DNA of 42,863 bases. Origin: Bacteroidales bacterium (GTDB lineage Bacteria > Bacteroidota > Bacteroidia > Bacteroidales > VadinHA17). Shown here one piece after another: positions 25,998 to 31,107 of the stretch. The notes under the pieces are model-generated. The model made no database searches and was not told the origin of the DNA. It saw only the letters and a list, made by a program, of their open reading frames with translations. How positions within the stretch are numbered: position 1 is the stretch's first letter; each line of letters begins with the position of its first letter. The stretch spans positions 1 to 42,863 of the forward strand of contig JADGPT010000004.1 in NCBI GenBank assembly GCA_017882345.1, in the 5' to 3' direction. The position numbers and the translations under genes are program-made.

Positions 25998-27506
25998 ATG
26001 CAAACAGTATTCATTGTTTTGCTTTCAATATTTACTATCATGGAAACATTTTCCCAGAACATTACAACTGACAGGCAGCCGGTTGCAGCAGGAAGATTTT
26101 ATCCGGCTGATAAAGAAACGCTTACAAAAGAGATTTCTCAACTCTTTGAAAACTGTAAAAAATCACCTGCTCATTGGAAGGTGAGAGCAATAATAAGTCC
26201 GCATGCAGGCTATATCTTCTCCGGGAAAATTGCTGCAGCAGCATATTCAGCAATTCCTAAGAATGTGGTATATAAAAATATCTTTATTATCGGATCAAGC
26301 CATGTGATGTATTTTGATGGCGCTTCAGTATATAATACCGGTGATTATATTACACCACTGGGAAAAGTTTCAGTAAACAAAGAAATTGCAAATAAGCTTA
26401 CTCTGAATAATAAAGTTTTCGACTTTCCCACAAATGCACATCTTAAGGAGCACAGTATAGAGGTACAATTACCCTTTATTCAGTACTATTTTAAAGATAT
26501 ACCAGCTATTGTTCCTATAATCATCGGTACTGATAACGAAAATACAGTAAAAAAGATCGCCGAGGCCCTCAGACCATGGTTCACTCCGGAAAATCTTTTT
26601 ATTATAAGCAGCGACTTTTCACATTATCCTGCCTATAAAGACGCTGTTGAAACCGACAATTTAACTGCAATGGGTATTATATCAGGCAATCCAAAGACAT
26701 TTCTGAACACCCTTAAGAACAACTCTTTAAAAAATATTTCAGGGCTCGCAACAAGCATGTGTGGATGGACTTCGGGTTTAACACTTCTATATCTTGCAGA
26801 GGGTAATAATAAACTTGAGATCAAGCTTTTAGACTACTGTAATTCGGGAGATTCCCCCAGCGGCGGTAAAGATGAAGTAGTTGGATATAATGCTATGGCG
26901 ATGATTGAAAAAGAGAAATCATCAACATCTTCGGATGAGACCGATAATAGTTTTTCCATCTCTGCTGAAGAGAAAAAACAACTTTTTACAATTGTTAAAA
27001 GCAGTATAAGATCGAGGCTCTATGATAATAAGCCCTTTGTTATTGATGAAAAGTCGATTCGTGATAATCTTAAAAAGCCATTAGGTGCATTTGTCACTTT
27101 AAAAATTAATGGCGCCTTAAGAGGTTGCATAGGAAGGTTCATATCTTCAGAACCTTTGTATAATGTTGTTCAGTCTTCCGCTTTATCCTCCGCGTTTGAG
27201 GATCCGCGTTTCTCCCCGCTCACAAAAGCGGAATACAAAAATACAGACATTGAGATAACTGTACTTGGACCATTAAAAAAGATCAACAATATAAATGAGA
27301 TAATTCTGGGCAAGCATGGGATTTATATCAAAAAGGGACAACGTTCCGGTACAATGCTCCCACAGGTTGCAACTGAAAATGGATGGACAGTTGAGGAATT
27401 CCTTGGATTTACTTCAAGAGATAAAGCGGGTCTGGGATGGGATGGTTGGAAAGATGCAGAAATTTCAATCTATGAGGGGGTTGTTCTTGAAGATAACCAG
27501 AAGTAA
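25998..27506 (+). CDS. AmmeMemoRadiSam system protein B-A fusion (Memo domain + AMMECR1 domain) with N-terminal signal sequence
   Basis: N-terminal signal MQTVFIVLLSIFTIMETFSQ; Memo part RQPVAAGRFYPADK...AIISPHAGYIFSGKIAAAAYS...SSHVMYFDG; AMMECR1 part KKPLGAFVTLKINGALRGCIGRF...SSAFEDPRFSPL. Confidence 0.93.
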   Translation: MQTVFIVLLSIFTIMETFSQNITTDRQPVAAGRFYPADKETLTKEISQLFENCKKSPAHWKVRAIISPHAGYIFSGKIAAAAYSAIPKNVVYKNIFIIGSSHVMYFDGASVYNTGDYITPLGKVSVNKEIANKLTLNNKVFDFPTNAHLKEHSIEVQLPFIQYYFKDIPAIVPIIIGTDNENTVKKIAEALRPWFTPENLFIISSDFSHYPAYKDAVETDNLTAMGIISGNPKTFLNTLKNNSLKNISGLATSMCGWTSGLTLLYLAEGNNKLEIKLLDYCNSGDSPSGGKDEVVGYNAMAMIEKEKSSTSSDETDNSFSISAEEKKQLFTIVKSSIRSRLYDNKPFVIDEKSIRDNLKKPLGAFVTLKINGALRGCIGRFISSEPLYNVVQSSALSSAFEDPRFSPLTKAEYKNTDIEITVLGPLKKINNINEIILGKHGIYIKKGQRSGTMLPQVATENGWTVEEFLGFTSRDKAGLGWDGWKDAEISIYEGVVLEDNQK

Positions 27507-27508
27507 CT

Positions 27509-29935: not shown

Positions 29936-29970
29936 GTTTATTATTAATTGGCATAATTCTTAAAAGTATA

Positions 29971-31107
29971 ATGAGTAAGAAAGAATGTGATCTCAGCAAA
30001 CGTGATTTTCTTAAAAAATCACTGGCTCTCTCAGCCGGTTTGATGTGTTTCCCCTGCCAGTCAATGTTTTCAGAAACGGCATCTGATGAACAGAGCATTT
30101 ACAAGAGAATTGCAATGTTCCAGGAAGAAACAGCAAGGGGAATAATGTGCAGGATCTGTCCTAATGAATGTGTTCTGAAAGAGGGAGAACTGAGCAAATG
30201 CAATAATCGAAAAGTTCATGACTCAAAGTTATATACGCTTGCATTTGGCAATCCTTGCTCAGTCAATGTCGATCCTGTCGAAAAAAAACCGCTTTATCAT
30301 TTTCTTCCTGGTTCAAAAGCATTCTCTATTGCAACAGCCGGATGTAACCTGGTGTGTCTGAATTGTCAGAACTGGACAATATCACAGACCAGTCCTGATA
30401 AAACAAGAAATTATGATATGATGCCGGAAAAAGTAGTTGAAGAATGTATTAAAAACAACTGCAGTTCAATAGCATATACTTATTCTGAACCGACCTCTTT
30501 TTATGAATATGTTTTCGAAACAGCTACTCTTGCAAGAAGTGCCGGTTTAAAAAACATCTTCAAATCGAATGGCTATATAAATAACGAACCTCTTAAAAAG
30601 CTCTGCAGCGTTATTGATGCAGCTAATATCGATCTCAAAGCATTCAGTGAAAGCACTTACCTGAAGTTAACCGGAGGAAAATTGCAACCGGTACTCGATT
30701 CGCTTAAAGTTTTAAAGGACATGGGGATATGGCTTGAAATAACTAATCTCGTTATTCCCGACTGGACTGATAATCTGGATGATATAAGGAATATGTGCAG
30801 GTGGTTAAGTGATAATGGGTTTAAAAACACACCATTACATTTCAGCAGGTTCTACCCTCTTCATAAACTTGAACAATTGCCTCCAACACCTGTTGAAATA
30901 TTAAATAGCGCCTTCAGGATTGCAACAGAAGAAGGTCTGAAATATGTATATACCGGAAATGTACCAGGAAATGAAATCTCGAATACCAAATGCCCGTCAT
31001 GCAACTCCACTATTATTGTCCGGCAGGGTTACCGGATCTCTACAAATACCATAACTGCCGGGAAGTGTAATAAATGTGGAAGTACAATCGAAGGGGTCTG
31101 GAAATGA
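29971..31107 (+). CDS. amrS: AmmeMemoRadiSam system radical SAM enzyme with Tat-like N-terminal sequence
   Basis: [40 protein letters not shown] (CxxxCxxC); [13 protein letters not shown]-terminal CPSC...CNKC zinc ribbon; N-terminus [17 protein letters not shown]. Confidence 0.93.

Follow-up and report, generated by a model that had tools for sequence, protein, structure and literature searches.

The window, by which we mean the whole 42,863-nucleotide stretch of DNA analysed (an entire contig, from a genome that is 87% complete), carries a cassette that joins the Memo, AMMECR1 and radical SAM domains of the AmmeMemoRadiSam system to a large membrane protein. We strongly infer, from sequence features of all three gene products, that the cassette is located outside the cytoplasm. 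The initial annotation had proposed an envelope location, and this prediction agrees with the Tat-type signal of the radical SAM enzyme, the signal sequence of the Memo-AMMECR1 fusion and the probably extracytoplasmic Rossmann domain of the membrane protein. On balance we favor reading the cassette as an extracytoplasmic AmmeMemoRadiSam system whose membrane protein handles the membrane passage of S-adenosylmethionine (SAM) or of a product formed from it. More tentatively, it is possible that this is a radical SAM system outside the cytoplasm, present in at least two phyla, with a dedicated carrier that exports SAM by way of an extracytoplasmic pseudo-spermidine-synthase receptor. The cassette had also been put forward as a candidate for an undescribed system, which does not hold wholly, since it would be an exported parallel copy of AmmeMemoRadiSam.

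Radical SAM enzymes normally act in the cytosol, where their cofactor SAM is made, and a supply of SAM in the periplasm is required if the enzyme of this cassette truly acts there. In the mechanism that we propose, the radical SAM enzyme (rSAM) would fold and receive its Fe-S cluster in the cytoplasm before being exported by Tat, as its signal suggests, and the Memo-AMMECR1 fusion would be exported by Sec, judging from its own signal, as a lipoprotein in most relatives. The membrane protein (TM) would be a dedicated third gene encoding an MFS-like carrier, whose outer spermidine-synthase-fold domain has lost the Asp for aminopropyl transfer and may bind a SAM-type nucleoside. TM would most likely move SAM outward, or swap SAM for spent products, and pass SAM to rSAM; we give this role the highest likelihood, since SAM has to be available to an exported rSAM and the outer domain has a fold for SAM-type nucleosides without transferase catalysis. 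The metal-dependent Memo, AMMECR1 and rSAM might then perform the same radical modification as the cytosolic system, only in the envelope instead of inside.

What Memo, AMMECR1 and their rSAM partner do has long been a question, and one that extends to human MEMO1. An exported duplicate would narrow the candidate substrates to the envelope, and it adds a membrane partner that is open to deletion and assay. The abstract of a 2019 paper on the PCAD-Memo superfamily reportedly extends the gene contexts of Memo and points to nucleotide-base and isoprenoid modification, and that paper may already mention TM as a Memo neighbor.

Organization of the cassette and the Memo-AMMECR1 fusion

The cassette comprises the following features.

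25998-27506, + strand: Memo-AMMECR1 fusion gene, 502 aa ORF
Residues 1-24 of the fusion, + strand: N-terminal signal sequence
26079-26897, + strand: Memo domain
26997-27476, + strand: AMMECR1 domain
27509-29935, + strand: membrane protein gene (TM), 808 aa ORF
27509-27802, + strand: three-helix N-terminal extension of TM, in 18/53 aligned members
27857-28474, + strand: N-terminal seven-helix half of TM (residues 117-334, AlphaFold2 pLDDT 94.2)
28517-29254, + strand: spermidine-synthase-fold (Rossmann) domain of TM, predicted extracytoplasmic
29336-29917, + strand: C-terminal membrane half of TM, duplicate of the N-terminal half (hhalign)
29971-31107, + strand: radical SAM enzyme gene (rSAM), 378 aa ORF
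Residues 9-16 of rSAM, + strand: Tat-type motif SKRDFLKK, KR variant (SKRDFLK at 29995-30015)

The three-gene layout given by the initial annotation is confirmed, as is the gap of 35 bases between TM and the ATG of rSAM; the gap between the stop of the fusion and the ATG of TM is 2 bases and not 3. The cassette is flanked by unrelated housekeeping genes, with argS, ffh and folD on one side and ligA, dapA and secA on the other. These were named from their translations, and Pfam confirmed ligA and a SiaC-like gene. The latter, at 25458-25913 upstream of the cassette, encodes a SiaC-family regulatory phosphoprotein and is retained in close relatives of the window.

Memo and AMMECR1 are carried on a single chain, as seen in the matches to Pfam (Memo, PF01875, 195.6 bits; AMMECR1, PF01871, 159.2 bits) and to TIGR04336 (Memo, 239.7 bits against a cut-off of 26) and TIGR04335 (AMMECR1, 153.8 bits against 99). 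The rSAM matches TIGR04337 (345.1 bits against 220) and the radical SAM superfamily PF04055 (60 bits against 29.5), with CX3CX2C present. The cassette is like the AmmeMemoRadiSam system in that all three domains (TIGR04335/TIGR04336/TIGR04337) score above their cut-offs and the metal and cluster ligands are intact. The Memo metal ligands H69, H102 and C255 and the AMMECR1 residue C377 are present in 84-85 of 85 fusions, the cluster cysteines C125, C129 and C132 are kept in 61/61 Tat rSAMs, and eight more cysteines are conserved in all rows of the Tat clade that cover them. With the Memo and rSAM ligands intact, the enzymes should be active. Unlike AmmeMemoRadiSam, the cassette has its Memo and AMMECR1 fused and predicted to be exported, a Tat-type signal on rSAM and an additional MFS-like membrane protein, and the genome that carries it often has a complete signal-less copy as well. 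Memo-Ammecr1 systems are cited in PMC7159879.

The iron ligands of human MEMO1 are H49, H81 and C244 (PMC11081632). H69 and H102 of the fusion align with H49 and H81, and C255 is paired with C244 by motif, outside the alignment. The Memo metal ligands thus correspond to those of human MEMO1 (PDB 7KQ8), although the human protein is cytosolic, eukaryotic, not fused to AMMECR1 and without an rSAM partner.

The signal sequence of the fusion has a lipobox-like Cys in most relatives. At four loci without TM (L084, L111, L120 and L132) this Cys is gone and the hydrophobic N-terminus is still there. We also observed a natural Memo-AMMECR1-rSAM triple fusion of 829 aa with a lipoprotein-like N-terminus (L086, 455-2941), in a genome that lacks TM.

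The Rossmann domain of the membrane protein

Residues 380-509 of TM match Pfam Spermine_synth (46.9 bits against a cut-off of 22.9), and Foldseek relates the Rossmann domain to spermidine synthases (E 1.8e-11 to 1uir, probability 1.00, TM-score to target about 0.7). Like SpeE (PDB 1iy9, 1uir), the central domain of TM has the fold and the nucleoside-binding acids, the aligned residues E419 and D445 being kept, and the loop PxPxxxxxNRxYTxEFF is strictly conserved. Unlike SpeE, TM has mostly lost the catalytic Asp (DSxDP): at position 463 the window has Leu, and of 53 sequences 2 have Asp and 51 have Asn, Leu or another residue. It also differs from SpeE in that the domain is set between two membrane halves, is predicted to be extracytoplasmic and scores far under the cut-off of the TIGR00417 spermidine synthase equivalog (43.4 bits against 249.55). 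TM likewise stays below the cut-offs of the PRK03612 membrane aminopropyltransferase equivalog (63.2 bits against 472) and of the fused MFS/spermidine synthase subfamily NF037959 (17.6 bits against 40). Of the aminopropyltransferase-like domain initially described, the fold and the nucleoside-binding acids stand, but the activity is not supported, given the loss of the Asp and the scores against the speE-type models.

TM resembles the PRK03612/NF002956-like membrane polyamine aminopropyltransferases (about 510 aa) in having a seven-helix N-half followed by a spermidine-synthase domain and in its N-in pattern, but those proteins have no second seven-helix half and do not adjoin an rSAM in the genomes examined. 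With the NF037959 proteins it shares the combination of transporter-like and spermidine-synthase-like parts, whereas in TM the domain is inserted between the halves.

An exported cassette in which TM is itself an envelope enzyme would also account for the retained fold, E419, D445 and the conserved loop. The Rossmann domain would then transfer an aminopropyl, aminocarboxypropyl or methyl group from SAM/dcSAM to a membrane substrate, for example a polyisoprenoid or lipid, which Memo, AMMECR1 and rSAM would modify afterwards. However, the replacement of the catalytic Asp and the failure to reach any equivalog cut-off argue against such a role, the 14 helices exceed the need of an anchored enzyme, and we consider it unlikely.

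Membrane halves and topology

The AlphaFold2 model of TM (53 sequences; pLDDT 86.5, pTM 0.86) runs from three extra N-terminal helices through seven helices and the Rossmann domain (about 337-582) to a second membrane half. The two halves are homologous (hhalign probability 97.9%, E 4.7e-13), indicating an internal duplication, and Pfam gives no significant family for either half or for the N-terminal extension. In Foldseek the N-half alone matches mostly MFS/ENT transporters, and all of these matches are weak (best E 0.096; TM-score <=0.58). The positive-inside analysis of the loops gives a mean Lys+Arg count of 16.5 for the N-terminal side and of 3.2 for the side of the Rossmann domain, an asymmetry present in 53/53 sequences. 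This would place the Rossmann domain on the outer side, provided that helices 302-322 and 610-630 cross the membrane. The ordinary 7-TM spermidine-synthase relatives (L006-L018) likewise have N-in, enzyme-domain-out charges, which is unexpected given cytosolic dcSAM use, so the outer placement may not be specific to the cassette.

The MFS-like halves could instead serve an exported cassette in which TM carries the substrate or product, for example by flipping a nucleoside- or isoprenoid-linked compound, with the Rossmann domain as outer receptor and with SAM reaching rSAM by another route or co-exported bound to it. The triple fusion at L086, which does without TM, is in keeping with such a division of labor and, if truly exported, implies that TM is not always needed. 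Against this, SAM-like molecules are the only ligand class that the domain suggests, and no conserved extra gene points to another substrate, which makes this role for TM distinctly improbable in our judgment.

The N-terminal extension has H32, H88 and H92 in 18/18 carriers and H74 in 17/18, and its match to Pfam DUF4405 (E=0.4) is under the cut-off. Our guess is that this four-His module is a heme-b-like candidate. If TM handles SAM for an exported rSAM, as we favor, the module may in addition deliver electrons to rSAM in the lineages that have it.

The putative export signal of the radical SAM enzyme

The presence of TM and that of a signal on rSAM go together. A [KR]RxF signal is found in 50/50 rSAMs near TM, compared with 0/6 rSAMs beside a fusion without TM, 0/30 canonical rSAMs and a background of 7/583 flanking ORFs (1.2%). 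In a genome-wide check of 14 genomes, all five with TM have a signal-bearing rSAM; in the nine without TM the rSAMs are all signal-less, one of these genomes having no rSAM. The form of the signal is conserved in 61/61 Tat-clade rSAMs, with KR rather than RR in 51/61. The signals in Bacteroidota are nearly always KR, and true RR forms occur in the second phylum sampled (see below) and in a few others. Every motif is followed by a weakly hydrophobic stretch (mean 0.85), and TatC was found in 25/25 genomes tested, including that of the window. A search of the open-access literature turned up no report of a radical SAM enzyme exported by Tat.

The prevalence of KR over RR, together with the generally cytosolic nature of radical SAM enzymes, could be taken to mean that the KRxF segments are not export signals and that rSAM is cytosolic, or just tethered to the membrane, the cassette being an ordinary cytosolic system that has a membrane partner. 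We think this very improbable, in view of the RR forms in the second phylum, the hydrophobic stretch after each motif, the lack of the signal in canonical and TM-less rSAMs, the signals of the fusions and the outer position predicted for the Rossmann domain.

The genome of the window has its Memo/AMMECR1 copy only in fused form, together with a second rSAM that belongs to a distant clade, is signal-less and lies on another contig (L030, 2836-3837, G000:C81). No separate Memo or AMMECR1 to go with this second rSAM was found in this incomplete genome. At another locus (L138, 10712-12898) two rSAMs stand in tandem in one cassette, one with a Tat-type signal and one without.

Evolutionary history of the signal

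A tree built from 104 rSAM domains groups all signal-bearing rows into a single clade of 68 (support 99/94). Nested in this Tat clade are also seven rows that are signal-less; they represent two or more separate losses (L111/L120/L132 and L084), and none of their genomes has TM. Independent contrasts yield four TM/Tat pairs, of which 4/4 are concordant (p 0.125), and with only four such pairs significance is out of reach. At loci of the L084 type, a single deletion could account for the loss of both TM and the signal next to it. The locus L065 (7962-11531) matches the window in gene order except for a clean absence of TM and the signal-bearing rSAM from the stretch that separates the fusion from ligA.

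Linkage and co-occurrence in two phyla

Of 248 Bacteroidota genomes drawn, just five contain a full-length TM. In 5/5 of these, TM shares a cassette with an rSAM and a Memo-AMMECR1 fusion, the rSAM of G097 being truncated where the contig ends. All five also have a second rSAM elsewhere. The weaker TM matches in this draw are 500-aa spermidine-synthase relatives that do not adjoin an rSAM in the genomes compared. A scan of the collection with the Memo-AMMECR1 alignment gave 80 loci, a set biased towards relatives of the fusion because of the alignment used. With the window and four earlier loci the set comes to 85 (L024 and L122 are from one genome). TM is near the fusion in 63/85 loci, and in 30/38 of those where both flanks are present. 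Gene order and orientation vary, so simple inheritance of synteny does not explain the association between TM and the fusion. When the remaining flanking genes were compared all against all, there was no conserved neighbor across clades, only clade-specific synteny, and no speD or polyamine gene family recurred near the cassette.

The second phylum was sampled with 297 genomes around an Aminicenantes locus (L136), counting TM at E<=1e-40. TM occurs in 81/297 of these genomes; rSAM is present in 80/81 genomes with TM, compared with 184/297 overall, and two or more rSAMs are present in 72/81 genomes with TM, compared with 12/216 without (Fisher p 2e-19 and 1e-45, values that ignore shared ancestry). 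For 51 TMs an rSAM of the same contig is listed; at least 46 of these TMs are within 3 kb of it and at least 25 within 100 bp. The initial annotation regarded the membrane protein as a dedicated partner of the amr genes and named neighborhood counts as the test that could overturn this, and the claim withstood those counts in both phyla. That TM is an unrelated spermidine synthase, placed here by chance or as part of a polyamine operon, as its weak match to the PRK03612 and speE models might suggest, is scarcely credible and is ruled out by the linkage and co-occurrence counts in two phyla, with no recurring speD/polyamine family and the catalytic Asp lost.

The complete genomes G120, G097, G039 and G078 also keep a separate, unfused and signal-less set of Memo, AMMECR1 and rSAM, so that the putatively exported set is a parallel copy. 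Two loci showed further gene arrangements. At L026 (8274-11081, G078), transposase-like and aminotransferase-like ORFs lie between the cassette genes, and at L027 (2227-7528, G184), a 7-TM relative lies near speD-like, phage-shock-like and DUF350-like genes, as judged from translations only.
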